The notes under the pieces: generated by a model
What the model was told of the DNA's origin: nothing
The model's input: the letters and a program-made list of their open reading frames with translations, nothing else
The model's database searches: none
NCBI GenBank assembly: GCA_031296915.1
Contig: JAVDPC010000008.1
Location: 155,440-219,439, forward strand
Source of the DNA: Cerasicoccus frondis
GTDB taxonomy: Bacteria > Verrucomicrobiota > Verrucomicrobiia > Opitutales > Cerasicoccaceae
Direction: 5' to 3'
Length of the DNA stretch: 64,000 nucleotides
Shown here: positions 41,208 to 62,299 of the stretch, one piece after another
Position numbering within the stretch: position 1 is the stretch's first letter
Layout: each line of letters opens with the position of its first letter
Program-made: the position numbers and the translations under genes

Positions 41208-41660
41208 AAATTCGTCTGACCTTAATATACGCAAGGGGTTGAAGACTTCCGGTGGTAGCGTTAAGTATGTTACAAATGGAGGGGAAATTGGCTCTCATGA
41301 TCAGTGCCTGGCGTTGGCTGAAGGGGAGGAGGCTTTCTAGCTTTGGCGGAAATGGTGCGAATGGGTCCCGCCATTATCAAGTATAACTGAGAGCCTTGGA
41401 GTTGAAGATACGGCACGGTTAGTCCGTTGGTTCATTTCGAATTAGCAGCTAGACTATATTCGATGGAAAAGTATTGTAAGCGGTTACGCATTTTGTTTTC
41501 CTGAAACCGCACTGTTTCGAGCATGCGTTCTTTAGCTTCATATTCGAAGTGCGTGCATTGCAGCGGTTGAGTTCGCTTAAACTGCTTTTGATAAACCCCA
41601 TCTTGAACGCCGTGAGCTATCTGATTCACGGCATCTATGAACTCATAACTCTTGTCTATC
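41208..41660. other. Intergenic region, 453 bp
   Basis: Holds the LacI-type operator at 41475-41490 and the promoter of the spherulin-4-like gene. A minus-strand 81-codon frame (41432-41677) overlaps the operator and the next gene's start and is not supported. Confidence 0.5.
41475..41490. promoter_or_regulatory. LacI-type operator, site 1
   Basis: TGTAAG-CG-GTTACGCA, about 170 bp upstream of the spherulin-4-like gene. Shares the TAA-n-CG-n-TTACGC plan of the five other sites in this locus. Confidence 0.6.
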
Positions 41661-42443
41661 ATGATTCGGAATCTCAAAATGTTAATTGTAATCTTGGGCC
41701 TGACCGCGGCTAATCTCCTTCACGCAGGGCCGCTGTCGGTTATTGTGCCGGCGTATTTTTATCCCACCCCGTCGGGTAGTGATTGGGATATGATTGGCGT
41801 TGGATTGGATGCCGGCGCTGATATTATCACTGTGATGAATCCCGCCAGTGGGCCCGGGGCATCCTACGATGTCAATTATGATAACGCCGTTGATAACCTA
41901 AGGCTAAAGGGAGGTTTGGTTATTGGATATGTTCCGACAACTTACAGCGCCAGACCTATTGCCCAAGTGAAAGCGGATATTGATCAGTATGTTGCCTGGT
42001 ACGACATTGACGGCATTTTCCTTGATGAAACCTTGGGAGACGGCGCATTGGGCACTCTTCAGTATTACAGCGAGATTTATCACTACATCAAAAACAACTA
42101 TCCTGGCTTCCTGGTTATAGGCAACGCGGGTAACGACGCCACCGATCTCTACCTTTGGTGGCCGGTGGTCGATGTGCTCGTGACTTACGAAGGCTACTCG
42201 TGGGATTATTATTCGGATTCCGTGCCTAGTTGGCGTTGGACGTTTTCTGAGGACTATTTTGCGATGATTGTACATTCGATGGTCGCTACCCCGTCAGAGT
42301 ATTACGTCAATGAGATCTCTGATATCGCGCGTAGTCGTAATACGCGATACATTTACATTACGGATGAAACTTTCGCGGGGAATCCATTCGATCAGCTGCC
42401 AAGTTTTTGGTGGGAGTTGATGTATGATGTAATCTATCGCTAA
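41661..42443 (+). CDS. Secreted spherulin-4 family (GH135-like) polygalactosaminidase candidate
   Basis: 260 residues from the ATG at 41661. Signal peptide about 1-22 (MIRNLKMLIVILGLTAANLL). Conserved spherulin-4 pieces: VIVPAYFYP at the first strand, VMNPASGPG, VIGYVPTTYSARP, WYDIDGIFLDE (Asp122-Glu123) and YEGYSWD. The characterised member Sph3 (GH135) cleaves alpha-1,4-N-acetylgalactosamine in fungal galactosaminogalactan, with an Asp-Glu pair at this position as active-site candidates. With two GH114-like genes in the same regulon, an alpha-1,4-GalNAc/GalN polymer is the likely substrate; this is inference, as many spherulin-4 proteins are untested. Confidence 0.8.
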   Translation: MIRNLKMLIVILGLTAANLLHAGPLSVIVPAYFYPTPSGSDWDMIGVGLDAGADIITVMNPASGPGASYDVNYDNAVDNLRLKGGLVIGYVPTTYSARPIAQVKADIDQYVAWYDIDGIFLDETLGDGALGTLQYYSEIYHYIKNNYPGFLVIGNAGNDATDLYLWWPVVDVLVTYEGYSWDYYSDSVPSWRWTFSEDYFAMIVHSMVATPSEYYVNEISDIARSRNTRYIYITDETFAGNPFDQLPSFWWELMYDVIYR

Positions 42444-42563
42444 CTGCCTCTGCGATTATTTGTTCTTTTGTTGGTGGCGGAGCTGTGTGCTCCGTCCCCT
42501 TTTTATCTAGTTGTTCAGCAACCCTCTACGGGGAAGATCAAAAATTTTTCTTGCGAAATAAAG

Positions 42564-42579
42564 TGTAAACGCTTACGCA
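42564..42579. promoter_or_regulatory. LacI-type operator, site 2
   Basis: TGTAAA-CG-CTTACGCA, 85 bp upstream of the first GH114-like gene. Central CG with near-palindromic arms. Confidence 0.7.
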
Positions 42580-42663
42580 AATGTTTGTTTCTTCAAAAAC
42601 TCTACTTTGAGGAAGCGTCCGTTGAGCGGCTTATCGTATATCCAATTCAACACCAATAGCACC

Positions 42664-44889
42664 ATGAATAAAGCATCTGCAGGCATGATCGCACTCTTTA
42701 CGGCCGCGATCACCCTATCTTCGCCCGCCGAAGCCCGTGGCCCGATGTCCGGCGTCACGTCCGACTCGAAGTTCATCATCTATTACGGTGATGACTACTA
42801 CTCATCCAATACCGGTGACCCCAGCACCTGGGTGCTGGACAGCACGATTATGAGCGGCCTTGCGTCGTTTGACGTTGTCGTGATTAATCCTGGTCAACCA
42901 CACTGCACGCCGGAAGTTGTCAAATACTTGAAGGACAACGGTGTCGATTACGTCATCGGTTACATCAGTATTGGCGAGGACTTTATCAACGACGCGATTG
43001 AGGATCCTCTGGCTGGTGGTTCTGGCATGGTAAAGTATGACTCGGCCACCGGTGACCTCATCCCGACTCCCGGCAATACGCTGCAAAGCTTTTATGTCGA
43101 TGTGGATTCTCAAACGGTTACCTACGATGGTACGGGGCGCGCCATTTCCGTTACGACAACTGCGCGCCTTACGCCCGATGGCAATCCGGACTATAATCCA
43201 ATCTTCCTGGGGTACATGGTAAATCCGGATACGAACTGGCGCTGGGTTCTGAACAATATGCGTATCGGTGGCACTGGCGTGACTGGTCGTTCGTTGACGG
43301 CAGGCCTTGCGCAAATTGCTGGTGCATGGGACACGGCGAACTTACGTGATCGCTCAACTAACTTCGGTTGCGATGGCTTTTTCCTCGATACCCTGGACAC
43401 CGCCGGACCGTATGATGCGGCGGGTTGGTATCCCTGGACTGTGGATGAAATGCGGGACACCGTGAAATATATTAGCGATAACTATACGGACAAAGTTGTG
43501 TTCGCTAATCGTGGCGCATTCTACTTCAGCGCCGGCTTGCAGAGTCCTGTGACTGGCGAGTATCCGATCGACTACTCAATCCGTCCTTATATCAACGCCT
43601 TCCTTTTTGAAAGCTTCCGCTATGACAGTGATCCAGGCACCGACGGTCCTGGTGGAATCTCGGAATACTACAATGAAAACCGCTACAATGTGGCGCCCAA
43701 GGTATTTGCGGAAGCGAATCGTGACGACGGCTTTACCATGTTCAGTCTGGAGTATGAGTCTGGCCGTACGGGGATTGTGACCGATGCGTTTAATACAGAC
43801 ATCCGGGAGTTTGGCTACATCGGCTACCTCTGCGAAGATGGTTTGCTAATTACAGTCGACACAGACTTCGCGAACTTGCTGCCGGATTCGTCGAATGACA
43901 ACAACGCGCCGACTTGGGACACCACGGGTAACGTGCTCTACAACACCGCTTCGACTTCGTTTCGCGTTGGCGTGCAGGAAGTGGAAGAGGGCAGTGCCGT
44001 GACTGAAGCAATCGTTCGTTGGGATGTCGCCATCGATCAGTCCTATCCGATCACTTACGATATCATCGTCACTGATATCGCCGCCAGCACGTCGACCACT
44101 TATTCGGACGTCGCCTTCGACGCCAACCCGGCTTGGGGGCATGATCCGGCGAACAGCTCGGCCAATGAATACACCATCACGGGCCTGACCGCTAACAAGA
44201 ACTACAACTTCAAGGTCGTGGCCAAGGATGCCTTCGGAAATCAAAACACCGAAGACACAGGTCTGAACTACTACGCTTCCGCCGCGCTCAGTAATCCGAT
44301 TTTGAATAGCGCAATTACGCTAGACGGATTATTGTCTGAATGGGGTTCGCTAAGCAGCTATATCGGGGATCCAGATGACGTGGTTGGAGTGAGTGATTCG
44401 AGCCACATTTCTGGCTCCGGTAATCAAGCGAACTGGCGTCAAATTCAGGTGGCGCACACGACGGACACGGGCACCCTCTATTTCGCCTATACCAACGATA
44501 CGAATATCTACGTGAGCTGGGGCTTCCAGATCTTCATTGATACCGACGACAATCCTGCGACAGGTTTCCAAGGTTCATTCGCTGGCATCGCGAATTTTCC
44601 GATTGGCGCCGACTACTTGATCGAAGGTGTCAACGTCTACCAGTACAATGGCACTGGCCTTGACTGGAGTTGGATTGCAGCCCCGGCAGCCGGCGGTTTT
44701 CAAGTGGGTCGCATCTGGAGTGGAACGACGGGCGAGGTCTATTTGCCGCTGAGCTGGATTGGCAGCCCAACGGGGACCATGAGTTTTGTCTGTTTCGGAA
44801 ATAACGAGTTCTATACTGGAGTCTCGGGTGAGTACGATTGGTATCCCGATGGCGCTACCAGCGGAGCGTCCTTCCGCTACTCGTTCTAG
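42664..44889 (+). CDS. Secreted GH114-like endo-alpha-1,4-polygalactosaminidase with Fn3 and DOMON/CBM9-like modules
   Basis: 741 residues from ATG 42664, where the signal peptide MNKASAGMIALFTAAITLSS starts; a longer frame from a TTG would lack a sensible N-terminus. TIM barrel about 35-430: INPGQPH, GYISIGED (Glu105), FGCDGFFLDTLDT (Asp237, Asp242) and FANRGAF, as in GH114-type and related glycosidases. About 440-555 is Fn3-like (YPITYDIIVTD..., ITGLTANKNYNFKV). The C-terminal 185 residues form a sandwich with ITLDGLLSEWG and IFIDTDDNPATGF...GADYLIEG, shared with two neighbouring proteins. The founding GH114 activity is cleavage of alpha-1,4-polygalactosamine. Confidence 0.8.
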   Translation: MNKASAGMIALFTAAITLSSPAEARGPMSGVTSDSKFIIYYGDDYYSSNTGDPSTWVLDSTIMSGLASFDVVVINPGQPHCTPEVVKYLKDNGVDYVIGYISIGEDFINDAIEDPLAGGSGMVKYDSATGDLIPTPGNTLQSFYVDVDSQTVTYDGTGRAISVTTTARLTPDGNPDYNPIFLGYMVNPDTNWRWVLNNMRIGGTGVTGRSLTAGLAQIAGAWDTANLRDRSTNFGCDGFFLDTLDTAGPYDAAGWYPWTVDEMRDTVKYISDNYTDKVVFANRGAFYFSAGLQSPVTGEYPIDYSIRPYINAFLFESFRYDSDPGTDGPGGISEYYNENRYNVAPKVFAEANRDDGFTMFSLEYESGRTGIVTDAFNTDIREFGYIGYLCEDGLLITVDTDFANLLPDSSNDNNAPTWDTTGNVLYNTASTSFRVGVQEVEEGSAVTEAIVRWDVAIDQSYPITYDIIVTDIAASTSTTYSDVAFDANPAWGHDPANSSANEYTITGLTANKNYNFKVVAKDAFGNQNTEDTGLNYYASAALSNPILNSAITLDGLLSEWGSLSSYIGDPDDVVGVSDSSHISGSGNQANWRQIQVAHTTDTGTLYFAYTNDTNIYVSWGFQIFIDTDDNPATGFQGSFAGIANFPIGADYLIEGVNVYQYNGTGLDWSWIAAPAAGGFQVGRIWSGTTGEVYLPLSWIGSPTGTMSFVCFGNNEFYTGVSGEYDWYPDGATSGASFRYSF

Positions 44890-45063: not shown

Positions 45064-45081
45064 TGCGTAAATGTTTACGCA
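45064..45081. promoter_or_regulatory. LacI-type operator, site 3
   Basis: TGCGTAAA-TG-TTTACGCA: perfect 8-bp arms, the most symmetrical of the six sites, 35 bp before the start codon of the 1373-residue protein, where binding would block transcription. Confidence 0.75.
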
Positions 45082-45116
45082 ATAATTTTGAAACAGCTTA
45101 ACCCCGCGTATACATC

Positions 45117-48100
45117 ATGCGATCAATAGACTTTTCTTTGGATTTTCATCGAACCTTAAAGCGTTCATTACAGGGTATTGCTGGCTTATCTTTGGTGGTT
45201 GCGCCAGCGCTTGCGATCGACACTGTATCAGTTGGGCATGCCGGGAGCGGCGCTTTACAAGTAGGGATTAAAGAGTCAGCTGCTGAAGTTCAGCAAACGC
45301 GTGTCATGTTTGATATCGACAGCGATTCCAGTAGTGGCTTCGGCGAATACGGCGCTGACTATATGATCGAAGGCGCGACGCTTTACGCTTATCCGGCTTA
45401 TGCCACTGGCTGGGAGTGGGAGCAGGTGGGGGTCGTGCCGCATATGGTTTCCGATGGGTGGCTTACTTACACCATCAACGACCTGCCAAAGTTTAAGGTG
45501 ATGCGGCTTTATGTGGAGAATTTCGATGCTGATTGGAGCGTGGTTGAACGCTATCCTGAGACCGATGCTATTTCAATCGATTACGCACAGTTAGAGCCAG
45601 CGAATCCTGTCTCGGATACTGGTTTCCGGGGTAGCCTTTACCGAAGTGGCCGGAATGGACTGGCGGTGAAAGTGTTGGGAGATGGCGTGGAGCCCGCGCG
45701 ACTGCGTGTCCTGATCAACAACGACGGCGATACCGCGACGGGTTTAGCGCCTTTTGGCGCAGACTACATGATTGAGGGGCTGACGCTTTACCAGCATGCT
45801 GGCACGGACAACGGCTGGAATTGGACACCGCTCTATCAACTGACGCCCGAAGTCAACCCTGGCGGAGTCGTGTATCCCATCGATAATATCGAAACCGGGG
45901 AATCGATGGAGTTCGGCGTTGAGAGGACGAACAGTAATTGGGAAGTGTTGGATCGGTATCCCGCGCAAGGGCTTAAACGGGTGAATAAAGACACGATGGG
46001 TGACTACTCTTTCAACGGGCCCGACCAACAAGTCGGGCCTAAAAAATATCTAGTTGAGGAGCTCATCGAGTTTGTGCCCGATGCGTTGAGCATTTCCTTC
46101 AACGAACGATTCGATTCTTTGCCTTGGAATGATGCGAGGCTGTCTGAACCCACTTGGGATGCGACGGGTTTTGCTGAGCCACTCAAATTGCGATTTGAAC
46201 TCTGCGATGCAAAGTCTGGCGAAGTCTTTGACCTGCAGCCTGATCGCGTGCGCCGAGCTGAAGGACTGATCCAGTGGCAAGGCAAAGCGGACGGAGTCGC
46301 CTGGCGCGTCATTGCGCAATCATCCGAGCACGGGGATCTGGAACTGTATGCCCAGCTAAAGAGTGAAGGGGAGAGGCTGCTTCGTTTTAGCATTGGAGTG
46401 CAGACGCCGTTTGCCGGGTGGACGTGGCATGACGACGTGCAATTTGCCCGTGAGATTAAATCCGACAATATCGAATACGCGCATGTTGGAAGCAGTCCTT
46501 ACGGGATGGACAGTAGTGTCTCGAAGTATCCATTTGGTGTTGTTGACAATGGCGCGCAGGCGCTCGTGCTCGAAACGGATTTAAGCGAGCCTTGCGTGTT
46601 TAAAATTTCGGCAAACACTGATCGGGATCAGCTCGTGATCGACTATCATGTCGCGCTTACGCCATTGACCAAAAAATTCCCGGGTCAGGCAGCGTTCCAC
46701 GTTTCATTGCGGAGTCGGCCGACAGTGGAGGGGCAGGCATTTCGTCAAGCGCTTTCAGAATTTTATCAGCGGAATGCATCTCTTTTTGAGCGTCGCCCAG
46801 ATGAGGTTGGTCTTTGGATGCCCTTTACGGATATCTCAAAAATTCCGAGTCCAAAGGATTTCGGTTTTGCCTACTATGAGAAGGGCGGCGCAATCGGATC
46901 GGACGTCGATTTCTGCCACGACAACGGTGTGCTGACCTTAGTTTACACTGAGCCATGGCTCTACTGGCTGCCAATGCCAAGTGGGATGGAGCGGACGCCA
47001 GACAACGCCATTGGCATGATGGAGCGCCTCGCAGTGAGCGGCTTTGGCAAGGCGAATGAATTTGCATCGGGTGGTGTGTTAGGCGCCGCGAGAAAGCCCG
47101 ATGGCGAGATCAATATGACCTTCTCGGATGTGCCTTGGAATTCAGGCGCCCGTATGGAGGTCAGCACCGATCCTGAGTTGCCAACTACGTCGGGGGCGCC
47201 GGTTAATCGCGCAATGGCGGAGTTTTATTTCATGCGGGAGCAAGTTGCACATGAGAAGGTGGATGGCATCTACCTAGATTCGCTTTCAGCCATGTTCATC
47301 ATGGACTACAACCCTGAGGCCATGGCGGTGACGAACTACCCCGCAACGTTTACCACCGAAGCTATGAAGCCAGGACTCGCTACGCCTATTGCCGCGTATG
47401 AATTCATCGCGGGATTGGGTGGCTACATGAGTGAACATGGCAAGTATCTGATGGGCAATTTTCCTTGCTGGAATTTTCCGTTCTTTATGCCCTATATCGA
47501 CATTCCGGGTGAAGAGACACATTGGTTTCATGAAGGGCATTACGAGCGCATGTCTGACCGTGAATTGAACTACCGACGCGCGATGTCAGGCCAGAAAGCC
47601 TGGGGCTTTTTGATGAATGGAAAATACGACCACTTTGAGGCAGAGTTTGCTAAGCGCTATTTTGAGGACAGTCTATACTGGGCATTTCAACCAAGCCTTT
47701 TTAGTCACGATGCCGCCAATGATCCATACTGGGAAAACGCTGCATGGTATGAGCGTGATCGGCATTGGTTCCAGCGTTACATGCCTTGGATTCAGCGGCT
47801 GGCGAATGTTGGCTGGCAACCGGTTGGACCGGCGCTGTCGTCCAATGATTCTATCGAGTTTGAGCAGTTCTATGGCGATCGCGATTCAGCGCAATTCATA
47901 ACCGTGCGCAACACTGCTAAGGCGCCGGCCTCTGGTCAGATCGCATTAGCGCTAGCCGGAGAAGCAGAGGATTGGATTGTGCTGAACCCCTTAGCTGGCG
48001 ATGCCGGATGGCTTTCGGTAAATGCTAATGGGCGTGCAGAGATTCCAGTCTTTCTGCAACCTGAGCAAGTGCGCTTTTTCATGATTTTCCGCAGCAGTGA

Positions 48101-49238
48101 AATCTCGAATGAAATGGATTTCCTCCGTAGTTGGAAAGATGGTCTGGGACAAGCCGAACAGTTGCTTAGTCAGTTGAAATCGATGCAGGATCAGCAGGCG
48201 CTGGAGATGAGGCTCCTGATCAGTTTGCCACAGCCTGCAGTGCGTGGTTTGGAGCAGGACATACGCATCCAAATTGAAAACGTGAGCAGCGCCGCTTTGC
48301 TAGTTGACCGAGTTAGCTTATTGTCCGTAGGGGCATCGATCGAAAAGAAGCCAGACGTCGCTTTGGCCGCTGGCGAGATGCGTGAATTTGAGCTGACTGT
48401 TCCTGCGAATTTTGACGAGGATACGTTCCGCCTAAGCTTTCTGATTTCAAAAGAAGGCGTGGCGCATAGCTTGGCGATTCCGCTTTCCTGGAAGCGCTTG
48501 AATCCTGTCGATGTCGCCTTGCCGCAAGACAAGGTGATTTCGATTCAGGAGATCGCTCAAATTCCTCTGCGCATGACGAATTTGCTCCAGCAGGTCAGCT
48601 TGGTCGATGTCCGTTGGAGTGGCGATTTTGGGGAGGGGCGTAAGGCATTTCCGCTAAATGCGGGCGAAGAGAAAACTATCTACATCCCGATTCCTGCTGC
48701 TGGACGCGAGTCCGGTTCAGTTGAGCTGAAGGCATCAGGGATGGGCTTTGAGATATTCGATAGCGAGGTGAAGCTACAATTCCTGGGCCAGCAGGCGAGT
48801 GTGGTGCGTGACACCGCAGTGCTTGTGGAAACAAGTAGCGATTTTCCAGGTTATGGCCCTTCACCGCTGCGCGATGGCGTTACCCAGCCGCCTGCTAGCA
48901 TGGCGTTTAACGAAGCTGCCTGGGCTTCGGAGGAATCAGCTTCGCCACATTGGGTCCGCTTTGAATTTCCAGAGCCCGTCGAGATAAGTGAAGTAAAGCT
49001 CTATTGGAATAATGAGGGTGGCGTCACATATACATCTCAAGAGGGGGTCATACAGGGGCGCACTATAGACGGAGATCGACGCCAGTTGACTCGTTTTCAA
49101 AACGATAAGACAACTGATGTGACGACAGTTGTTTTTGAGCCTGCCACCTTGGCGAGTTTAGAGATTCTCCAACCTGCGCGGCGTGGCCCGGAAATTCGAC
49201 CCAATATCCTTTGGCTGACAGAAATCGAAGTGCGTTAG
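45117..49238 (+). CDS. Very large secreted TIM-barrel protein, candidate glycoside hydrolase
   Basis: 1373 residues with signal peptide (about 1-39). Two N-terminal DOMON/CBM9-like modules (about 40-155 and 160-290), each with a FDIDSDSSSGF- or NNDGDTATG-type loop and GADYMIEG. Next a beta-sandwich of galactose-mutarotase type (about 320-545), then a TIM barrel (about 560-930) with VDGIYLDSLSAM (Asp716, Asp721). Two beta domains and a C-terminal discoidin-like module (VRFEFPEPVEISEVKLYW) follow, similar to the C-terminus of the second GH114-like protein. A supersandwich before a barrel recalls GH101/GH129 alpha-N-acetylgalactosaminidases, but I cannot confirm this. Under operator site 3 of the regulon. 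Confidence 0.65.
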   Translation: MRSIDFSLDFHRTLKRSLQGIAGLSLVVAPALAIDTVSVGHAGSGALQVGIKESAAEVQQTRVMFDIDSDSSSGFGEYGADYMIEGATLYAYPAYATGWEWEQVGVVPHMVSDGWLTYTINDLPKFKVMRLYVENFDADWSVVERYPETDAISIDYAQLEPANPVSDTGFRGSLYRSGRNGLAVKVLGDGVEPARLRVLINNDGDTATGLAPFGADYMIEGLTLYQHAGTDNGWNWTPLYQLTPEVNPGGVVYPIDNIETGESMEFGVERTNSNWEVLDRYPAQGLKRVNKDTMGDYSFNGPDQQVGPKKYLVEELIEFVPDALSISFNERFDSLPWNDARLSEPTWDATGFAEPLKLRFELCDAKSGEVFDLQPDRVRRAEGLIQWQGKADGVAWRVIAQSSEHGDLELYAQLKSEGERLLRFSIGVQTPFAGWTWHDDVQFAREIKSDNIEYAHVGSSPYGMDSSVSKYPFGVVDNGAQALVLETDLSEPCVFKISANTDRDQLVIDYHVALTPLTKKFPGQAAFHVSLRSRPTVEGQAFRQALSEFYQRNASLFERRPDEVGLWMPFTDISKIPSPKDFGFAYYEKGGAIGSDVDFCHDNGVLTLVYTEPWLYWLPMPSGMERTPDNAIGMMERLAVSGFGKANEFASGGVLGAARKPDGEINMTFSDVPWNSGARMEVSTDPELPTTSGAPVNRAMAEFYFMREQVAHEKVDGIYLDSLSAMFIMDYNPEAMAVTNYPATFTTEAMKPGLATPIAAYEFIAGLGGYMSEHGKYLMGNFPCWNFPFFMPYIDIPGEETHWFHEGHYERMSDRELNYRRAMSGQKAWGFLMNGKYDHFEAEFAKRYFEDSLYWAFQPSLFSHDAANDPYWENAAWYERDRHWFQRYMPWIQRLANVGWQPVGPALSSNDSIEFEQFYGDRDSAQFITVRNTAKAPASGQIALALAGEAEDWIVLNPLAGDAGWLSVNANGRAEIPVFLQPEQVRFFMIFRSSEISNEMDFLRSWKDGLGQAEQLLSQLKSMQDQQALEMRLLISLPQPAVRGLEQDIRIQIENVSSAALLVDRVSLLSVGASIEKKPDVALAAGEMREFELTVPANFDEDTFRLSFLISKEGVAHSLAIPLSWKRLNPVDVALPQDKVISIQEIAQIPLRMTNLLQQVSLVDVRWSGDFGEGRKAFPLNAGEEKTIYIPIPAAGRESGSVELKASGMGFEIFDSEVKLQFLGQQASVVRDTAVLVETSSDFPGYGPSPLRDGVTQPPASMAFNEAAWASEESASPHWVRFEFPEPVEISEVKLYWNNEGGVTYTSQEGVIQGRTIDGDRRQLTRFQNDKTTDVTTVVFEPATLASLEILQPARRGPEIRPNILWLTEIEVR

Positions 49239-49328: not shown

Positions 49329-49344
49329 TGCGTAAGCGTTTGTC
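49329..49344. promoter_or_regulatory. LacI-type operator, site 4
   Basis: TGCGTAAG-CG-TTTGTC; strong left half, weak right half, 82 bp upstream of the first regulon LacI gene. Suggests autoregulation or cross-regulation. Confidence 0.55.
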
Positions 49345-49425
49345 CTTTACCCTGTCACGGTGATTCCCCACGATTCTGCATGCTAGTTCTTGGTTTGCAC
49401 TAAAGCAAGCGGGGCAATACTGCAG

Positions 49426-53521: not shown

Positions 53522-53539
53522 TGCGTAAACATTTACACA
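53522..53539. promoter_or_regulatory. LacI-type operator, site 5
   Basis: TGCGTAAA-CA-TTTACACA, between the divergent kinase (53449) and Gfo/Idh/MocA (53582) genes, so it can control both directions. Confidence 0.7.
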
Positions 53540-53581
53540 AAAATCTTGACGATGGCTTTGAGCATTGTTTTTATGACTAGC

Positions 53582-54700
53582 ATGAAGATTGGAGTAATTG
53601 GACTAGGCAAGCGCCTGAACCATATGGTGAATACCTGTATGCGTGAAGCAGAGCCCGGACTTTCTATTGTCGCTGCGATCGACCCCGATGAAGCCGCCGT
53701 GCGTGAAGCGCTTCCCGAGAAAGAAGCGAAAGCAGTCAAATTTGTGCGTTCAGTTGAAGAGCTTGCGGCTGCAGGAGTGGATGCGATTGCTGTAGGAACA
53801 CGTTGTAATTTACACGCGAAGTACGCGATCGATGTTGCCGCCACCGGATTGCCTTTATTTTTGGAAAAGCCCGTCGCTACGACACTTGAAGATGCCTTAG
53901 AATTGGAGGCTGCATATCAGAATACGGAAACAGAGGTGGTGGTTAGTTTTCCGCTACGCACATCACCGCTTTGCGCTCGTGTTAAGCATCTATTGGATGA
54001 AGGCGCACTCGGGATTCCGCAGCATGTGCTGGCGGTTAATTATGTGCCCTATGGCGACGTTTATTTTAACTCCTGGTATCGAGACTACGGCGTGACAGCC
54101 GGATTATTCCTACAAAAAGCGACACATGACCTCGATTATTTAGCCTTTTGTCTTCGTAGTCCTATCGTTCGCGTCGGCGCAATGAAGTCCTGCGGGCGAG
54201 TTTATCGAGACGCAAAATTTGCCGATGTCGAGCCCGATCCAAATTGCGGTTTTTTTAAGCAAATTGGAACGCCCGAAACCGGTATGAATGAGGACGCATC
54301 GAGCGCGCTCATTGAGTTCGAAAACGGCGCTCAAGGGGTCTACACGCAGGTGTTTTATTCCAAGCGTGGAGCGGCGCGTCGCGGGGCAACTTTCTCGGGG
54401 CACCAGGGGACGCTGAGTTTTGATTGGTATGAAAATCAAGCGAAGCTGGTGCACCATTTTAAACCGTTTGAGGACACGGTGCGCGTAGATAGCGACTTGC
54501 ATCACCACGGTGGCGATGGCGCATTGGCGGACAACTTCCTCAAGGTTGTTCGTGGAGAGGCTAGCTCGATCTCGAACATCTGGGCAGGGTTACAAAGTGT
54601 GTATGCCTGCTTGGCGGCCAAAGAGAGCTCTGAAACGGGACAATTCTGTGAAGTTCGTCAATTGGCCCAAGTAGGCATGGGAGAAGCTTCCTACCGCTAA
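53582..54700 (+). CDS. Gfo/Idh/MocA-family NAD-dependent enzyme
   Basis: 372 residues from ATG 53582 (MKIGVIGLG); the longer open frame would put operator site 5 inside the gene. Rossmann domain IGVIGLGKR, then VSVEELAA-type linker and LFLEKPVATTLEDA, the EKP signature of sugar dehydrogenases, and a C-terminal alpha/beta domain with KATHDLDYLAF and HHHGGDGALADNF. May oxidise a hexosamine or its derivative. Because the GH109 alpha-N-acetylgalactosaminidases share this fold and NAD use, a glycosidase role is a possibility in this locus. No signal peptide. Confidence 0.8.
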   Translation: MKIGVIGLGKRLNHMVNTCMREAEPGLSIVAAIDPDEAAVREALPEKEAKAVKFVRSVEELAAAGVDAIAVGTRCNLHAKYAIDVAATGLPLFLEKPVATTLEDALELEAAYQNTETEVVVSFPLRTSPLCARVKHLLDEGALGIPQHVLAVNYVPYGDVYFNSWYRDYGVTAGLFLQKATHDLDYLAFCLRSPIVRVGAMKSCGRVYRDAKFADVEPDPNCGFFKQIGTPETGMNEDASSALIEFENGAQGVYTQVFYSKRGAARRGATFSGHQGTLSFDWYENQAKLVHHFKPFEDTVRVDSDLHHHGGDGALADNFLKVVRGEASSISNIWAGLQSVYACLAAKESSETGQFCEVRQLAQVGMGEASYR

Positions 54701-54713: not shown

Positions 54714-54731
54714 TGCGTAAACACTATTACA
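54714..54731. promoter_or_regulatory. LacI-type operator, site 6
   Basis: TGCGTAAA-CA-CTATTACA; perfect left half, shifted right half. It ends one base before the ATG at 54733, so binding would cover the ribosome-binding region: probable autorepression. Confidence 0.6.
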
Positions 54732-54732
54732 A

Positions 54733-55755
54733 ATGCCACTCGATATTGTAGAATTCTCAAAGCAAATCGGCGTCTCGACGGCGACGGTTTCCCGTGCGTT
54801 TTCCGGACGCGGACGCATTAGCGAAAAAACGCGTGAGCGCGTGTTGGAAGAAGCGCGTGCTCGTGGTTTTTCTCCCAATGTGCATGCGAGCCGACTTAAT
54901 TCGAAGCGAACCAATCAGATTGGTCTTTACTATAGTTTCTCGGAAGACCCGATATTTGACTACTATAACATGGAACTCGCGCAAGAGATCGCCAAGGCGG
55001 CAGAAAAGCGTGGGCAAGCGGTTCATCTTGAACTCAGCCGAACTGGTAAGGGCGAGAACCACCGGTTGCGTCAACTGACTGGCGGCGGCGGCCTGGATGG
55101 CATCATCCTCGTCGTCGATGGTCGCACCAGTGGCGCTCGACTATTAGAGTCTGTGCAGGGGTGCCCGGTGGTTGTCGTGACTAATCGCGCCTGGGCTCCG
55201 ATTCAGAAAGAGATCGTGGTCGAGTTGGATATTTTCAGTGGAATGGTCGACGCAGTGCGGGATCTGGCAAGCTTGGGTCACAAGCGGATTGGGTTTATCG
55301 GCGGCACTGGGATCACAGCCAAGGTTAACGGCTTTCGGCGTATCTTGGAAGATTGTAAGCTCACTGTTGATCCAAAGTTAATTGCGGAAGGTTCGGTCAG
55401 CTTTTCTGATGGCCAAAAGGCATTTCATCAAGTCGCCTCGCAGCGCCCGTCTGCAGTATTTTGTGCAACGGACGTTTTGGCGATGGGCGCTCTGAATGAA
55501 GCCAATGCTATGGGGCTAAATGTTCCGGGAGATATTTCCATTGTCGGCATGGATGACTTGGCCTTCACCGCCTACACCACGCCTTCCTTGAGCACTGTGG
55601 GCATACCTCGCAGTCAAATCGCGAAGACTGCGGTCGATAGCATTATTTCCCAGCTCGATGACGAAGAGAGCGAATCTCCGCGCGCATTGGCTAAGCATGT
55701 CATCGGTAGCTACTACGTGCCGCGCGCATCCGTGGGCGCTTTCACTGGCGCTTAG
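54733..55755 (+). CDS. LacI-family regulator B, paralogue of regulator A
   Basis: 340 residues. HTH VSTATVSRAFSGRGRIS identical to regulator A; the first 90 residues are nearly superimposable (both have FDYYNMELAQEIAKA). Effector domain differs more in the ligand half (VHLELSRTGKGENHRLRQLT), so the inducer may differ. Starts one base after operator site 6. Followed by the PEP-CTERM binding protein, pseudopilin, GH114-like, symporter and beta-helix genes on the same strand with gaps of up to 49 bp and one overlap, possibly one long transcript. Confidence 0.88.
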   Translation: MPLDIVEFSKQIGVSTATVSRAFSGRGRISEKTRERVLEEARARGFSPNVHASRLNSKRTNQIGLYYSFSEDPIFDYYNMELAQEIAKAAEKRGQAVHLELSRTGKGENHRLRQLTGGGGLDGIILVVDGRTSGARLLESVQGCPVVVVTNRAWAPIQKEIVVELDIFSGMVDAVRDLASLGHKRIGFIGGTGITAKVNGFRRILEDCKLTVDPKLIAEGSVSFSDGQKAFHQVASQRPSAVFCATDVLAMGALNEANAMGLNVPGDISIVGMDDLAFTAYTTPSLSTVGIPRSQIAKTAVDSIISQLDDEESESPRALAKHVIGSYYVPRASVGAFTGA

Positions 55756-55804: not shown

Positions 55805-56491
55805 ATGAAATCAATAAACACTACGAAACTGGTCTGCGGCATTTTGGGCTCACTTGCGCTTAGCGCATCGGCCGTTGCAGGCACCTACGCAAACATCACC
55901 ATTGATGGTGATTTTTCAGACTGGGTCGGTGTGCCGATCTTGACCTCTGACACCACCGGTGATGGTGATCCTGTTGACTTCTTCACGTTGTATGCAGCCA
56001 ATGACGAGAATAACCTCTACTTGCGCGTGGTTTATAACAACCCTGTCGGCGTCAATGGCGCTAATGCCCAAGTATTCATTGCCCTTGATAATGACAACAA
56101 TACCGCAACAGGTTTCGATGTTTATGGCTTGGGTTTGATTGGCTCGGAGGTAGGGTGGCAAAATGATTTTCCCTTTGAGCAAACCACGGGGAACTTCAAT
56201 ACTGGCAACGGTATTACCGATGGTGGCGCCTCAATTGCGCTTTACAATACCACGGTCAGCGAGCAGGAAATTTCCATCAGTCGTTCGGCTACCTTTACAA
56301 TAGGCGGCGCCACAATTTTCCCGAATGACACTTTTGCGATCGCCATGTATAGCAACGGGACCACGCTGGATGACTTCATCGGGGCCGGTGTCTATACCTT
56401 TGCTTCGGTTCCTGAGCCGGCTCATTATGCAATGATTTTTGTGGGGCTGGCTGGCGCGATTACCTTGCTTCGTCGCCGCAACCGAGCATAA
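55805..56491 (+). CDS. PEP-CTERM secreted protein with DOMON/CBM9-like binding module
   Basis: 228 residues. Signal peptide about 1-25, then one beta-sandwich (ITIDGDFSDWVGV, LYLRVVYNNP, VFIALDNDNNTATGFDV) and the sorting tag SVPEPAHYAMIFVGLAGA, with TM helix and RRRNRA. The DNDNNTATG loop is the same motif as in the 741- and 1373-residue enzymes of this regulon. Likely a surface-exposed polysaccharide-binding protein. 49 bp after regulator B. Confidence 0.82.
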   Translation: MKSINTTKLVCGILGSLALSASAVAGTYANITIDGDFSDWVGVPILTSDTTGDGDPVDFFTLYAANDENNLYLRVVYNNPVGVNGANAQVFIALDNDNNTATGFDVYGLGLIGSEVGWQNDFPFEQTTGNFNTGNGITDGGASIALYNTTVSEQEISISRSATFTIGGATIFPNDTFAIAMYSNGTTLDDFIGAGVYTFASVPEPAHYAMIFVGLAGAITLLRRRNRA

Positions 56492-56513: not shown

Positions 56514-57155
56514 ATGGAATGGCGTAAGCAATCTGGGTTCACTTTGGTGGAGCTACTCGTCTGTGTGGCGGTAATCGGCATACTGGCGAGTATCCTCATC
56601 GCAGTGCTAGGCGCTGTTCGTGAGAAAAGTCTACTCACGAACAGCATCTCCAATGTGCGCAACATTGGAGGCGGAACCCAGATGTATGCGCAAGAGCACG
56701 ACAATAATATACCGGTGTGGCATAACTATAACACCGGCCAATATTGGTGGCAATTGCTGCTCCCATACCTTGGCGAAGATACGGACATCTTTCACAGTCC
56801 GGCCCATGAAGAGTTTAACGACACCGACGACACTACGCTGGCTCAGACTATTTCCTATGGCTGGAATTACGTGGTGATGGGGCGGCATCTTGGCGATACA
56901 TCCCGTGAAGGCGATCATGTGCTGTCGCAGTTCATCTTTGCCGATCCTTCGAAGACACTGGTGCTTGCCGATGGGCCCAAGACTGATTGCTGGGGCTACA
57001 TTGCTCCTGATCATCCGGCGGACCCGGACCGCTATGGCAATAACCTTGTAGTGGCGCTGTTCCTTGATGGCCATGTGGACACTTTGGATTACGCCGAAGT
57101 TACCGCAGAGGAACCTTACTTCGTGCCGATTCGAGAGATGCCGGATTTTAAATAA
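56514..57155 (+). CDS. Type II secretion pseudopilin-like protein
   Basis: 213 residues from ATG 56514, 22 bp after the PEP-CTERM gene. The prepilin signature QSGFTLVELLVCVAVIGILA is at residues 6-26, with Glu at position +5 after the GF cleavage site. The rest is DUF1559-like: ISNVRNIGGGTQMYAQEHDN, then YGWNYVVMGRH and VVALFLDGHVDTL near the C-terminus. Such proteins are abundant in Verrucomicrobiota and Planctomycetota, often next to glycosidases. Here it might form or cap a fibre that presents enzymes. The peptidase is not encoded in this window. Confidence 0.82.
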   Translation: MEWRKQSGFTLVELLVCVAVIGILASILIAVLGAVREKSLLTNSISNVRNIGGGTQMYAQEHDNNIPVWHNYNTGQYWWQLLLPYLGEDTDIFHSPAHEEFNDTDDTTLAQTISYGWNYVVMGRHLGDTSREGDHVLSQFIFADPSKTLVLADGPKTDCWGYIAPDHPADPDRYGNNLVVALFLDGHVDTLDYAEVTAEEPYFVPIREMPDFK

Positions 57156-57171
57156 CCTTACCCCAATAACC

Positions 57172-58560
57172 ATGCGATTAATATTCCCTTTCGCGGCCTT
57201 TCTTTGGGTTGCGTGCCTGACCCATGCCTCCGATTTGCGTGACCGATTCCAGCGGATCGATTCCTATGCCTGCTATTATGGCCCGGGCAAGGTCGAGGAG
57301 CTCGTTTCGCGAGGCGCTGTGATCATCGAGACCCAGCAGCAAAGCCCTGCGTCAATTGCGCAAATGCAAGAGGGGGGCGCTATTGTCATTGGCTACATAA
57401 GCATCGGGGAAGACGATGCCCTGCGCGTGGGGGATGGTGAAGGGCCTGGCGGCATGGACTCCGGATATTTTGACCGCGATGGCAACGATGCGCCGGATAA
57501 AAACAAAATCTGGAACTCCTACTACGCCGATGCGCGTCAATTGGCCTGGCGTGAATATTTCCTGAAGAGAACTGCCGCCATGCGCGATGAATACGGCGTC
57601 GATGGCTTCTTCCTCGATACGGTGGACACCAGCGAGCTTTACCCGGAATCCAAGGACGCGATGATTTCGCTCATAAAAGATTTGCGCTCTCAACAGCCGG
57701 ATAGCGTAATCGTGATCAACCGTGGCTTCCACACGATCCCATTCCTTGCCGATACGGTCGATGGCGTCATGTTTGAAAGCGGCACGGCGAGCTATGATTT
57801 TGCGGCAAAGGAGTACATGCTGCTGAAGCCATCGGCTTGGGATTACGGTCTTGTGTTGTGGCGCGATGTGCTCAAGCCCGTTATGGACGAGCATGGAATA
57901 GTGGTGCTGGCGCTGGATTACGCGGAATCGGCTGAACATGAAAATACACGCATCGCCATGGACCGTGCATTGACCTTTGGCTACGTGCCAGAGGTGTCGA
58001 CTATCTACCTGGACGCCATCTACGACATCGATTACTCACCCGCGCCGGATGAAAAATACCTCGAACTGCAGAACACTCCCGAGCGCATGACTTATCAACT
58101 GCCGGAGCCGACGAACGGCTTTCCCGAGGGAACAAAGGTGGCGCCAAGTTCGATTTATCCGGACTACGATGTGACGCCGGTGGTCGACGGAATCGCTGAC
58201 CGTGAGCAACTGGATTGGCGTCGCCGCGCCTGGGCGTCCTGGGAAAGAGGTGGTGAGCATTTTCTGGAGTTTCAATTTCCACAACCAGTCTCTGCCGATG
58301 GGCTCTCAGTGGACTGGGCATTTGACAATGGAGTCCACCACCAAGCGCGCGAATTTCGTGTCGAAGTCATGCCCGCAGATCAGGCGGAAGAGTGGGTGCC
58401 GGTGGTTGCCGTTGAGGACAACGAACAGTCAAGCAACGACTTGAAATTCGACGCGATGGACATCGTTGCTTTGCGCCTGGTGCAAGAGGATGGTATGGGC
58501 TCTCCGGATCGCCCCGATCTCATGTGGGTGGAGCAGGTTCGGCTTAAGTCGCTCAACTAA
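57172..58560 (+). CDS. Second secreted GH114-like polygalactosaminidase with discoidin-like tail
   Basis: 462 residues from ATG 57172 with signal peptide (about 1-20). TIM barrel about 25-335: YACYYGP, VIGYISIGED (Glu80), YGVDGFFLDTVDT (Asp144, Asp149), VINRGFHTIP and MFESGTASYD. The arrangement matches GH114 and the enzyme at 42664. C-terminal about 345-462 is discoidin-like (FLEFQFPQPVSADGLSVDW...), similar to that of the 1373-residue protein. Predicted to be exported and to cleave alpha-1,4-galactosamine polymers. 16 bp after the pseudopilin gene and 9 bp before the symporter gene. Confidence 0.8.
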   Translation: MRLIFPFAAFLWVACLTHASDLRDRFQRIDSYACYYGPGKVEELVSRGAVIIETQQQSPASIAQMQEGGAIVIGYISIGEDDALRVGDGEGPGGMDSGYFDRDGNDAPDKNKIWNSYYADARQLAWREYFLKRTAAMRDEYGVDGFFLDTVDTSELYPESKDAMISLIKDLRSQQPDSVIVINRGFHTIPFLADTVDGVMFESGTASYDFAAKEYMLLKPSAWDYGLVLWRDVLKPVMDEHGIVVLALDYAESAEHENTRIAMDRALTFGYVPEVSTIYLDAIYDIDYSPAPDEKYLELQNTPERMTYQLPEPTNGFPEGTKVAPSSIYPDYDVTPVVDGIADREQLDWRRRAWASWERGGEHFLEFQFPQPVSADGLSVDWAFDNGVHHQAREFRVEVMPADQAEEWVPVVAVEDNEQSSNDLKFDAMDIVALRLVQEDGMGSPDRPDLMWVEQVRLKSLN

Positions 58561-58569
58561 GGTCTTTCT

Positions 58570-60579
58570 ATGAGCATTATCGACTGGGGAATCGTCACGG
58601 TATTCCTACTCGCTCTCTTGGGCCTCGTGCTCTACTCGCGGCGCTACATGCGTGGGGTGGCGGACTACCTCGTGGCCAACCGCTGCGCCGGTCGTTACTT
58701 GCTGACGCTTTCGGAAGGGATCGCGGGACTCGGCGCGATCACGATTGTGGGCGCTTTTGAAATCACCTACCAAGCCGGTTTTGTTCCGATCTGGTGGAGC
58801 TATTTTCTGTCGCCACTCGGGCTGATCATTGCGCTTTCGGGCTTCGTCATTTACCGCTTCCGGCAAACGCGCTCCATGACGATGCCACAGTTCATCGAGA
58901 TGCGCTACAGCAGAAGCTTTCGTGTGTTTTGTGGGCTGCTTGCATTTCTCTCGGGGCTGATTAATTACGGAGTTTTTCCAGCGATTACGGCGCGGTTCTT
59001 TATCCACTTTTGTCAATTGCCGGATGTGGTCATGATCTTCGGGACGCCCGTGGCGGTGTTCCCTATCGTCATGGCGATCGAGCTGCTCATTGCGCTGCTG
59101 TTTGTCTTTCTGGGCGGTCAAATCACAGTGCTGCTGACTGACTTTGCGCAGTCGATGTTTAGCCTCATCGCGTTTATGGTGATCCTGATTTTCCTCCTGT
59201 GGATGTTTAATTGGGGCGACATTATTGCGGGGCTTCAAACGCGGCCAGTTGATCAGTCAATGATTCATCCGTTCCAAGCCGGTGGTATGGATGATTTCAA
59301 CATCGGCTACTACCTGATCGGCGTTTTCATGGTGGTTTACACCACGCGAGCCTGGCAAGGGAGCAGCGCCTACAACGCCTCGGCCCGCTCGCCGCATGAG
59401 GCGCGTATGGCGGGCATTTTGGGCAACTGGCGGGCTATGGCGCAGGGCATGGCAATGTTGCTGATGCCGTTGTGCGTGTTTGCTGTGTTGCACAATCCTG
59501 TTTTCAGCGAGCAAGCAGTTGAGATTACGCGCGACCTGAGTCAGTTTAGCGAGCCTGCCATTCGCCATCAAATGACGGTGCCGGTCGGCTTGCAGCATAT
59601 CCTTCCAATTGGCGTCACCGGTCTACTTGCGGCGGTGATCGTGGCGGCGGCGGTCAGCACGGATAACACTTACCTGCACTCTTGGAGCAGCATATTTATC
59701 CAGGACGTGATTCTGCCATTTCGAAAGAAACCGCTGAGCATGAAGCAGCACATTTTACTCTTACGCTGTGGTTTGCTGGGCGTGGCGTTTTTTGCGTGGT
59801 GTTTTAGCATGATCTTCCCTCTGCGTGATTACATATATATGTTCTTTGATATCACGGGGGCGATATTCCTCGGAGGGGCGGGCTCTGTGATCATTGGCGG
59901 GCTCTATTGGAAGCGTGGCACGACGGCTGGGGCATGGGCGGCGATGATTATTGGCGCAACTTTCTCGGCGGGGGGGCTGCTGCTACAGTCCTATTGGGCA
60001 GAAGTCGCACCAGTCTTGCTCGAGTGGTTCCCGGCTAACTCTGCGTTGCAAAGTATCGCGCATGATTTTCCCTTTAACGGGCGTCAGATGATGTTCTTTT
60101 CGATGCTGTGTGCGATTGTCGGCTATGTGGTGTTCTCGCTCTTGCAGAACTACGCGCATAACATGGACAAGCTCCTGCATCGTGGAGAGTATCGGCGTGC
60201 GGATGATCCTTCCGTTGAGAAGCCAATCAAGTCTTGGCGCAATTTGGGCATGGGCCCGGAGTTTTCGAGGTGGGATAAAGTCATCTACATCGGCACAATT
60301 GTTTGGGTGATTGGCTGGTGGTGCGTATTTTTGATTGGTAGCGCGGTTAATTTAACCGTTGGCGTCAGCGAGGAAACTTGGATTACTTTCTGGCAAGTGA
60401 ATCTCTGGATATCCGTAATCCTTGGCATCTTTACCACCGGCTGGTTTATCTACGGCGGGGTGGGGGATGTGCGCCGCATGTTTGCTGATCTCAATGAAGT
60501 GCAACTGGACGTGGATGATGACGGCACCGTCGTTGATGGGATGAATGCCGATGACCTACATGAGCATGATAAACTTTGA
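58570..60579 (+). CDS. Sodium/solute symporter (SSS family)
   Basis: 669 residues, strongly hydrophobic, with about 13-14 predicted membrane segments and the SSS-type middle region (GLLAAVIVAAAVSTDNTYLH). It begins SIIDWGIVTVFLLALLGLV. Likely takes up a sugar or amino sugar released by the secreted glycosidases with Na+. No SusC/SusD pair or ABC transporter is present in the locus, so this is the only visible importer. The 3' end overlaps the beta-helix gene by 35 bp. Confidence 0.85.
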   Translation: MSIIDWGIVTVFLLALLGLVLYSRRYMRGVADYLVANRCAGRYLLTLSEGIAGLGAITIVGAFEITYQAGFVPIWWSYFLSPLGLIIALSGFVIYRFRQTRSMTMPQFIEMRYSRSFRVFCGLLAFLSGLINYGVFPAITARFFIHFCQLPDVVMIFGTPVAVFPIVMAIELLIALLFVFLGGQITVLLTDFAQSMFSLIAFMVILIFLLWMFNWGDIIAGLQTRPVDQSMIHPFQAGGMDDFNIGYYLIGVFMVVYTTRAWQGSSAYNASARSPHEARMAGILGNWRAMAQGMAMLLMPLCVFAVLHNPVFSEQAVEITRDLSQFSEPAIRHQMTVPVGLQHILPIGVTGLLAAVIVAAAVSTDNTYLHSWSSIFIQDVILPFRKKPLSMKQHILLLRCGLLGVAFFAWCFSMIFPLRDYIYMFFDITGAIFLGGAGSVIIGGLYWKRGTTAGAWAAMIIGATFSAGGLLLQSYWAEVAPVLLEWFPANSALQSIAHDFPFNGRQMMFFSMLCAIVGYVVFSLLQNYAHNMDKLLHRGEYRRADDPSVEKPIKSWRNLGMGPEFSRWDKVIYIGTIVWVIGWWCVFLIGSAVNLTVGVSEETWITFWQVNLWISVILGIFTTGWFIYGGVGDVRRMFADLNEVQLDVDDDGTVVDGMNADDLHEHDKL

Positions 60580-62299
60580 AACGTTACTTGGCTATGTAGC
60601 CTTGGCGATGGTTCCAGTCGGAGCATCGGCTGCCGAATATTATCTGGCTGGCAATGGCAGTGATTCAGCAGCGGGAGACATCGATGCGCCATGGGCAACC
60701 TTTGCACACGCGCTCACCCAGGTGGCGCCGGGAGATGGCGTCAACGTGCGCGCGGGATCTTACGCAGAGCGTCTGTTGATCAATCAATCAGGCAGCGAAG
60801 GCGCGTACATTACCATTCGTGCTTATGACGGCGAAGCGGTGGTGATTGATGGCTCCGCGATGAACGTTTCGGGCCGTATGGGCTTGGTCGAGCTGCAGGA
60901 CTGTTCCTACGTGCGCGTTGAGGGACTGACGCTTCGAAACTTATCGACTAGCAACCGCGATCAGGTACCCGTTGGCATACTTTATGAGGGATCGGGCACA
61001 GGTGTTGAACTGGTTAACAACACGGTTGAGCAAATCGCTACGCTCGCAAATCCTCGGGCTAATGGATCCGGGCGTGACGCACATGGCATCGGTGTATTCG
61101 GTACGGAAACCATATCGATCAGCGACCTCTTGGTCTTGGGCAATACCGTACGAGACCTGACGCTTGGTTCCAGTGAAGCGCTGGTGATTAATGGCAACGT
61201 AGATGGTTTTCGAATCATAGAGAATTCAGTTTTCGACTGCGATAACATCGGGATTGATTGCATCGGCTATGAAGGCGTTGGTCCGACCGATGCATTGGAC
61301 CAAGCGCGGAACGGATGGATCAGCGGCAACCAAGTCAGTGGCATTTCGACGGTCGGTAATCCGTCCTACAGCGGACCATCCTCAGCAGGGATATACGTCG
61401 ATGGCGGACGGGATATCGTCATCGAGCGCAATCAAGTGAGCATGTGTGATATCGGCGTTGAGGTGGCGTCCGAGCATCTCGGCAAGTCGACTTCGAATGT
61501 CATCGTGCGGTCCAACTTGCTGACCGAATGCTTGATGGCCGGACTGTTCATCGGCGGCTATGAGTCTGGCTCCACGGGGAGCGCGGCAAATTGCGTCATT
61601 ACGCACAATACGTTTTATAACAATGACACACAGGCCAACGGCGATGAATTTGGTCAACTGCACATTCAATACCAGGTGATCGATACCGAAATTACCGCCA
61701 ACATCTTTTACCACGACATTACTAAGTCGGGGGCATACAATACCTTCATCGTTCAATGGAATAACGATGCCTCGGGGCTTGTGATTAATCGTAACCTTTA
61801 TTACGGGCCGGAGACGCCGGTTTGGGTCTTGGGGGGCGATTGGATCGAGGGTTGGGCCGCGTATGATAACCTTGCCCTAAGTGGAGCGGAGGAGGTGTTT
61901 GCTGCGCCCGGTTTTATCGATGCTGCTGCGGATGATTTTCGACTGACTACGGAGTCTCCTGCTATCGACCTCGGCTCAACGAGTGAAGCCGCAGGCGTGC
62001 GGGATTTAGATGGCCTTGGGCGCACAGCAGGGGAGAGTCCGGATGCGGGCGCTTATGAGTTCGGCGCAGAAGCCTCTACTTGGGGTGGCGCTAGCATTGA
62101 GGCGATTGACCAAGAGGTCCATTTTTCCATGACAGCGAATCCAGGCTGGATGTGTGGTCTTCAATATAGCAACAACCTTGAGGAATGGCTCCAGGCGCCT
62201 GGAGTTTGGATTGGTCAACATGACTTATCTAGCGTTGCGGTTCATGAACAATCGCTCACCAGCATTGATCCAATATTCTTTCGTATAGTGATCTACTAG
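60545..62299 (+). CDS. Secreted right-handed parallel beta-helix protein
   Basis: 584 residues with a signal peptide (ending near SAAEYYLAG, about residue 30); starts at 60560 or 60566 would also give it. A pectate-lyase-like beta-helix (about 35-420) is made of repeated strands such as ITIRAYDGEAVVIDGSAM, VELVNNTVEQ, IEIDRNQV- and ITHNTFYNND-type turns. Near residue 490-525 the ending SPAIDLGSTSEAAGVRDLDG followed by SPDAGAYEFG is a choice-of-anchor-Q type element. Polysaccharide lyase or hydrolase of unknown substrate; catalytic residues are not recognisable. Confidence 0.8.
   Translation: MPMTYMSMINFETLLGYVALAMVPVGASAAEYYLAGNGSDSAAGDIDAPWATFAHALTQVAPGDGVNVRAGSYAERLLINQSGSEGAYITIRAYDGEAVVIDGSAMNVSGRMGLVELQDCSYVRVEGLTLRNLSTSNRDQVPVGILYEGSGTGVELVNNTVEQIATLANPRANGSGRDAHGIGVFGTETISISDLLVLGNTVRDLTLGSSEALVINGNVDGFRIIENSVFDCDNIGIDCIGYEGVGPTDALDQARNGWISGNQVSGISTVGNPSYSGPSSAGIYVDGGRDIVIERNQVSMCDIGVEVASEHLGKSTSNVIVRSNLLTECLMAGLFIGGYESGSTGSAANCVITHNTFYNNDTQANGDEFGQLHIQYQVIDTEITANIFYHDITKSGAYNTFIVQWNNDASGLVINRNLYYGPETPVWVLGGDWIEGWAAYDNLALSGAEEVFAAPGFIDAAADDFRLTTESPAIDLGSTSEAAGVRDLDGLGRTAGESPDAGAYEFGAEASTWGGASIEAIDQEVHFSMTANPGWMCGLQYSNNLEEWLQAPGVWIGQHDLSSVAVHEQSLTSIDPIFFRIVIY

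Follow-up and report, generated by a model that had tools for sequence, protein, structure and literature searches.

Pel and galactosaminogalactan are polymers that give bacterial and fungal biofilms their cohesion. Of the enzymes that cleave them, the best studied, PelA, Sph3 and Ega3, come from organisms that make those polymers. The hydrolase domain of Pseudomonas aeruginosa PelA belongs to glycoside hydrolase (GH) family GH166, and Sph3 (GH135) and Ega3 (GH114) belong to fungal galactosaminogalactan clusters. In the lacto-N-biose/galacto-N-biose pathway of Bifidobacterium, NahK acts together with a uridylyltransferase and an epimerase. According to an excerpt of PMC12054363, the endo-acting galactosaminidases of GH114, GH135, GH166 and GH191 form related families, with Sph3 acting on acetylated polymer and GH166 favouring partly deacetylated polymer. 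Here we analyzed a locus at 41.4-62.3 kb of a 64,000-nucleotide stretch of DNA (the window) from Cerasicoccus frondis, a marine-type verrucomicrobial bacterium with a 5.8-Mb genome. Judging by sequence, this locus is likely to be a regulon, probably controlled by LacI-family proteins, for the use of an extracellular polymer of alpha-1,4-linked galactosamine (GalN) and N-acetylgalactosamine (GalNAc) resembling Pel or galactosaminogalactan; as its target, Pel and the fungal polymer cannot be told apart.

The locus shares parts with each of the described systems. A 498-residue (498-aa) protein has a barrel like that of PelA, but it stands separate, carries an F5/8-type module, and is encoded in a genome without detected PelG. 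The GH135-like protein links the locus to Sph3, Ega3 and the alpha-1,4-GalN(Ac) superfamily, but unlike the fungal clusters the locus is bacterial and includes genes for a symporter and for salvage. As a gene triplet, the kinase, nucleotidyltransferase and epimerase recall the Bifidobacterium pathway; here the triplet is linked to polymer hydrolases. The locus proteins scanned with Pfam include no SusC/SusD pair, which sets the locus apart from polysaccharide utilization loci of the Bacteroidota type. Among the matches listed in our literature search, whose coverage left out preprints and most subscription papers, no title gave an account of such a locus.

In a search of PDB sequences, residues 76-320 of the 498-aa protein matched PelA (5tcb, E 3.7e-24). 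D185 and E238 (open reading frame (ORF) numbering) aligned with the PelA catalytic pair D160/E218 and were invariant in all five aligned sequences, so the active-site carboxylates are in place. The PelA mutant structure 5tsy has Ala where the catalytic Glu of the 498-aa protein aligns. According to the part of PMC12022489 available, the inactive PelA double mutant is D160A E218A, and an excerpt of PMC12054363 prints the catalytic Glu as Glu223; given the Ala in 5tsy, E218 rather than Glu223 fits PelA. A preliminary description of the window had called both this protein and a 760-aa protein GH114-like. The 498-aa protein did exceed the cut-off of Pfam GH114 (PF03537; 32.4 bits, cut-off 27), but its meaningful PDB matches were all to PelA and none at E<=1 was to Ega3; we therefore filed it under GH166. 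Nor did its matches at E<=1 include 2aam, the T. maritima GH191 structure according to the excerpt of PMC12054363, in which Env-GH191, from the same endo-galactosaminidase superfamily, acts on Pel. A Pfam scan found no deacetylase domain in the protein. These results support its assignment as a GH166-like protein with predicted endo-alpha-1,4-(N-acetyl)galactosaminidase activity.

The 760-aa protein scored below the GH114 cut-off (13.7 bits), and that label was given up. Its barrel aligned with the GH166-like profile (hhalign, 99.7% probability, E 7.3e-27), its D261 and E335 sit in columns invariant in all four sequences, and profile-level comparison with PDB gave no meaningful match; the protein thus appears to be a remote GH166 relative only. 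An AlphaFold model of its barrel was too poor for use (predicted local distance difference test (pLDDT) 37.9) and was discarded. The GH135-like protein, by contrast, was placed as first described: it matched Pfam Spherulin4 (PF12138, E 7.6e-41; 140.6 bits, cut-off 30.2) and spherulin-4 in PDB (5d6t, E 2e-13). In alignment with Sph3, its D125 pairs with an Asp, and E180 was judged by conservation in one distant homologue alone, from genome G007, which keeps both residues. In a profile comparison, the GH135-like protein showed no supported match to the GH166-like profile.

The modelled core of the 1373-aa protein (residues 316-965) proved to be a sandwich plus barrel, predicted with confidence by AlphaFold (pLDDT 91.9), in agreement with the barrel protein named in the preliminary description. 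The best Foldseek match was MYORG (best E 8.5e-12), and the matches also included the Flavonifractor plautii alpha-galactosaminidase (9awt/9ayu; best chain E 1.6e-11), the alpha-N-acetylgalactosaminidase NagBb (5wzn; best chain E 5.1e-11) and blood-group A galactosaminidase folds. The best ten matches had template modelling (TM) scores of 0.41-0.48, all below 0.5, root-mean-square deviations of 8.8-11.2 A and about 10% identity. We take MYORG, 9awt/9ayu and NagBb to be members of GH31, GH36 and GH129, respectively; the core has the overall fold of these families and lies outside them by sequence. A Pfam scan gave no glycosidase match in any of 29 family members, only one PilX match (E 0.078), and a search of PDB sequences at E<=10 gave no match. 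D721 and E800 fall in columns that do not vary across the 29 core sequences of an alignment (A3) that left out four of 32 phmmer stretches (one with a large insertion, two split-gene pieces and one truncated). Inspection by eye of the model's secondary structure placed D721 after barrel strand 4 and E800 after strand 6. A D/E catalytic pair is also found in GH101 and GH129. Across a survey of 288 genomes of the phylum, 33 had a member of the family at E 1e-10, six of them at E<1e-100. On sequence and model, the 1373-aa protein is a separate glycosidase-like family, not yet classified, whose features fit an exo-acting alpha-galactosaminidase of predicted specificity. Tentatively, and with some doubt, we propose that it founds a new GH family of exo-alpha-galactosaminidases, with the D721/E800 pair and a GH31/36/129-like fold, and would complete a secreted food pathway from a cationic Pel-type matrix to monomers.

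The hydrolases are also tied together by modules. The 1373-aa protein has two mutually related N-terminal modules (E 1.4e-21), to which the C-terminus of the 760-aa protein is also related (E 5.5e-8). The F5/8-type module at its C-terminus is akin to the one in the GH166-like protein (E 1.1e-13). When the genome was searched with the 1373-aa protein, the C-terminal module was found in the GH166-like protein (E 8.7e-10), the N-terminal module weakly in the 760-aa protein (E 0.003), and, at the sensitivity of this search, no further protein. These common modules suggest a common target. We set aside two weak module matches to the PEP-CTERM protein of the locus (E 0.021 and 0.033), since a shuffled control gave 10 matches at E<=0.05 in 20 rounds.

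The kinase, nucleotidyltransferase, epimerase, Gfo/Idh/MocA enzyme and SSS symporter were all borne out by Pfam or PDB matches (Table 1). The PDB entries closest to the epimerase, 6wjb and 6wj9, are presumably PelX. With a NahK-like kinase and an epimerase of this kind, salvage of GalNAc to UDP-GlcNAc is the natural reading. PelX is a UDP-GlcNAc C4-epimerase needed for Pel, according to the accessible part of PMC9135694. The kinase gene lies within 10 kb of the GH166 gene in three of the four genomes with a strong GH166 barrel (the window genome G000, G045 and G006), which says more than its presence alone. On contig G000:C7 of the window genome (L134) there are relatives of the PIG-L, ROK-like and NagB-PIG-L proteins, 50-68% identical to those of relatives' loci; at L134:2441-9177 the genes for a PIG-L deacetylase, a weakly ROK-like protein and a NagB-PIG-L fusion adjoin a GH2 mannosidase-like gene.

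The shared operators claimed for the locus were confirmed. The pattern TGCGTAANNNNTTACNCA (TGCGTAA-N4-TTACnCA) had seven matches in the window with up to two mismatches, versus 1.15 expected, and none of 100 shuffles reached seven (maximum six); because near-palindromes are counted on both strands, the seven matches represent four places. In the genome sequence searched (5.8 Mb, 96% complete), exact matches occurred at two places only, both in the locus. With up to one mismatch, there were eight forward and seven reverse matches genome-wide, versus five and five for a reversed-pattern control, so that beyond the locus, sites with a single mismatch appear to be chance occurrences. In six relatives' loci (L081, L082, L032, L033, L083 and L086), the palindrome again lies upstream of the 1373-type gene; it was not found there in L084, L087 or L088. 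The GH135 operator has a counterpart of the same kind before the GH135 gene of Cerasicoccus maritimus (L082), and a related site precedes the LacI gene of G006 (L075). The two LacI-family proteins are the putative partners of this palindrome.

Synteny was surveyed in 29 loci fetched around 1373-type genes. The closest to that of the window was L082 of Cerasicoccus maritimus NBRC 105382, whose gene order is the same up to its end, which falls within the symporter gene. Genomes G228 and G045 keep the 1373-aa, LacI, Gfo, PEP-CTERM, pilin-like, GH166 and symporter genes, with the 1373-type gene relocated and inverted in G045. Among the 288 genomes, a strong 1373-type match (E<1e-100) was present in six and a strong GH166 barrel (E<1e-40) in four; three share both, and in all three the two genes lie in the same DNA stretch (hypergeometric P 2e-5, with cut-offs chosen after seeing the lists and uncorrected for phylogeny). 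Genes for amino-sugar metabolism accompany several of these loci. The distant GH166 locus of G006 encodes NahK, an epimerase 35% identical to that of the window, and NCBIfam equivalog matches to nagA and nagB, each at 259 bits (cut-offs 226 and 237, respectively). The G045 locus has the kinase, nucleotidyltransferase and epimerase with a PIG-L deacetylase, a protein without family match and a NagB-PIG-L fusion, and the G228 locus has a NagB-PIG-L fusion and a counterpart of the unmatched protein, here weakly ROK-like (below cut-off). DUF4832 proteins lie near 1373-type genes at L036:8229-10016 and L087:3362-5854 (L087 is titled Kiritimatiellae), possibly as another partner family; since both L087 and G074 carry them, the set of partner enzymes seems to be variable. 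By their equal lengths, L084 and L085 are probably the same records as the G206 and G074 contigs, respectively.

In the proposed route, the GH135-like, GH166-like and 760-aa enzymes, which appear to be secreted from N-termini inspected by eye, would cut the polymer internally, the GH135-like enzyme in acetylated regions and the GH166-like enzyme in those partly deacetylated. Trimming of the oligomers to single sugars would fall to the 1373-aa protein, whose fold is common to alpha-galactosidases and alpha-galactosaminidases, and the symporter may bring these sugars in. The kinase, nucleotidyltransferase and epimerase would then convert GalNAc to GalNAc-1-phosphate, UDP-GalNAc and UDP-GlcNAc, and amino-sugar genes elsewhere in the genome could finish the route. 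The Gfo/Idh/MocA enzyme and the beta-helix protein may have accessory roles. The preliminary description's claim of an attack on an alpha-1,4-galactosamine polymer followed by salvage is thus supported by homology and context, with the family names corrected.

Several observations weigh against this reading. None of the three endo-type genes was seen in 27 of the 29 loci: GH166 was present in one (L082), the 760-type in two (L082 and L083, the latter with two 760-type proteins and no GH166) and GH135 in one (L082), while NahK was present in four and the symporter in six. L081 keeps the gene order and is otherwise very similar to the window, yet in the stretch examined it had no GH166, GH135 or 760-type gene, nor the first LacI. 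In reading these counts, the survey includes many distant family members or short contigs, and the relatives' gene lists were made by ORF picking, in which genes can be missed. GH135 occurred in only two of the 288 genomes, and in G007 it and the 1373-type match are on different contigs. NahK was not found in G228 at E 1e-20; it occurs in 202 of the 288 genomes and so is not specific by itself. Profile comparison lent no support to the 1373-aa core as a GH166 relative (0.9%). Alpha-glucosidases also match this core, lower in the Foldseek list; together with MYORG as best match, the low TM scores, the high deviations and the low identity, this means that the fold says little on specificity. A Zobellia GH114 gene stands among agar-responsive genes in the part of PMC5613140 available, so such families may act on other polymers and the substrate is not readable from family alone. 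The same gene favours an alternative in which the GH166, GH135 and 760-aa proteins, by drift, now act on an unrelated polymer and are grouped with GalNAc salvage only incidentally, as does TmGH191, which showed no galactosaminidase activity according to the excerpt of PMC12054363. We consider such drift very unlikely, given the strong similarity of the GH166 barrel to PelA, the closeness of NahK in G000, G045 and G006, and nagA and nagB in G006.

The locus might instead make or remodel a galactosamine exopolysaccharide of the host itself, in the manner of PelA or Sph3/Ega3, with the epimerase supplying UDP-GalNAc. The well-studied GH135, GH114 and GH166 enzymes do belong to biosynthetic systems (PMC12054363, in excerpt), and PelX makes UDP-GalNAc for Pel (PMC9135694, in part). 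However, PelG was not found in any of five locus-bearing genomes (G000, G228, G045, G006 and G074) in a search whose control matched in Thermotoga maritima, and its absence from the search results for the window genome argues against Pel synthesis. Of the six genomes searched, only G271, from the same order, had a match; about 8 kb away lies the gene for a PelA-like protein of 941 aa whose N-terminal domain is GH114/GH166-like (L077:7462-10284, L121). The two probably represent a verrucomicrobial Pel operon, which looks different from the present locus. No glycosyltransferase was seen among the locus proteins scanned, the GH166-like protein lacks a detected deacetylase domain, the symporter, kinase and LacI regulators suit catabolism, and the G006 locus includes nagA and nagB. 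Own-polymer synthesis is accordingly disfavoured, and we regard it as quite improbable. Degradation of another GalNAc glycan, such as mucin-type O-glycans or a chondroitin-like or methanochondroitin-like polymer, is unlikely but somewhat easier to entertain, mainly through the beta-helix protein, which exceeds the cut-off for the disaggregatase-associated family (Pfam Disaggr_assoc, 30.9 bits, cut-off 22.6) and has relatives in G045 and L081, and through the breadth of NahK in the phylum. The resemblance of the 1373-aa core to the NagBb and blood-group A galactosaminidase folds would also suit it. On the other side stand three relatives of endo-alpha-1,4-galactosaminidases in one operator-bearing locus, and the locus proteins scanned include no sulfatase, sialidase or fucosidase. 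A GH112 search matched none of five genomes, and its control matched nowhere either.

The gene set spans 41652-62299, and every gene named in the preliminary description is an ORF there. For several genes, the likely start, judged by eye, lies downstream of the listed ORF start. Window position 64000 is the end of contig G000:C8 (base 219439), so downstream genes of the locus may be missing.

Table 1. Genes and operator sites of the candidate galactosamine-polymer locus (window coordinates)
Feature	Position	Strand	Remarks
Operator upstream of GH135-like gene	41473..41490	-	2 mismatches
GH135/spherulin-4-like protein	41661..42443	+	ORF listed from 41652, 263 aa
Operator upstream of 760-aa protein gene	42562..42579	-	1 mismatch
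Remote GH166 relative, fn3-like region, C-terminal module	42664..44889	+	ORF listed from 42607, 760 aa
Palindromic operator upstream of 1373-aa protein gene	45064..45081	.	exact match
1373-aa protein: two N-terminal modules, sandwich-plus-barrel core, C-terminal F5/8-type module	45117..49238	+	
Degenerate operator-like site upstream of first LacI gene	49329..49346	+	left half TGCGTAA matches, right half degenerate
LacI-family regulator 1	49426..50439	+	ORF listed from 49390; Pfam LacI, Peripla_BP_3
UDP-sugar 4-epimerase	50420..51400	-	closest PDB 6wjb/6wj9, phmmer E 4.2e-60; Pfam epimerase
Sugar-1-phosphate nucleotidyltransferase	51393..52286	-	PDB 3pnn (entry names no function) E 2.2e-89; Pfam NTP_transferase
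NahK-like N-acetylhexosamine 1-kinase	52313..53449	-	PDB 4wh1 E 3.5e-76; Pfam APH-type kinase
Operator between divergent kinase and Gfo genes	53522..53539	.	exact match
Gfo/Idh/MocA oxidoreductase	53573..54700	+	ORF listed from 53510; Pfam; weak similarity to several dehydrogenases
Operator-like site, one extra base, upstream of second LacI gene	54714..54732	+	similar form in L082
LacI-family regulator 2	54733..55755	+	Pfam
Small PEP-CTERM-type protein	55805..56491	+	Pfam PEP-CTERM E 0.0057, below cut-off; kept in synteny
Pseudopilin-like protein with N-methylation motif	56514..57155	+	ORF listed from 56439; Pfam N_methyl
GH166 (PelA-hydrolase)-like enzyme, C-terminal F5/8-type module	57172..58560	+	ORF listed from 57064, 498 aa
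SSS-family sodium:solute symporter	58570..60579	+	Pfam SSF
Parallel beta-helix-type protein, possible auxiliary enzyme	60566..62299	+	ORF listed from 60545

Elsewhere in the window, a 2022-aa glycine-rich repetitive protein with a PEP-CTERM-like end (by eye) is encoded just upstream of the locus (35139-41207). At 27916-34752, Pfam matches identified a GH5 enzyme, a PEP-CTERM protein, a GH16 protein and a GH1-AraC fusion, which may form a locus of their own for beta-glucan, and a pyruvate formate-lyase-like protein with a glycine-radical domain is encoded at 8358-10541.

If the locus does serve the use of a galactosamine polymer, a bacterium feeding on that polymer would show who recycles the biofilm matrix. 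Its matched endo- and exo-enzymes would be available for the dismantling or analysis of biofilms, and the glycosidase-like family of the 1373-aa protein, present in 33 of the 288 genomes of the phylum, would gain a function.

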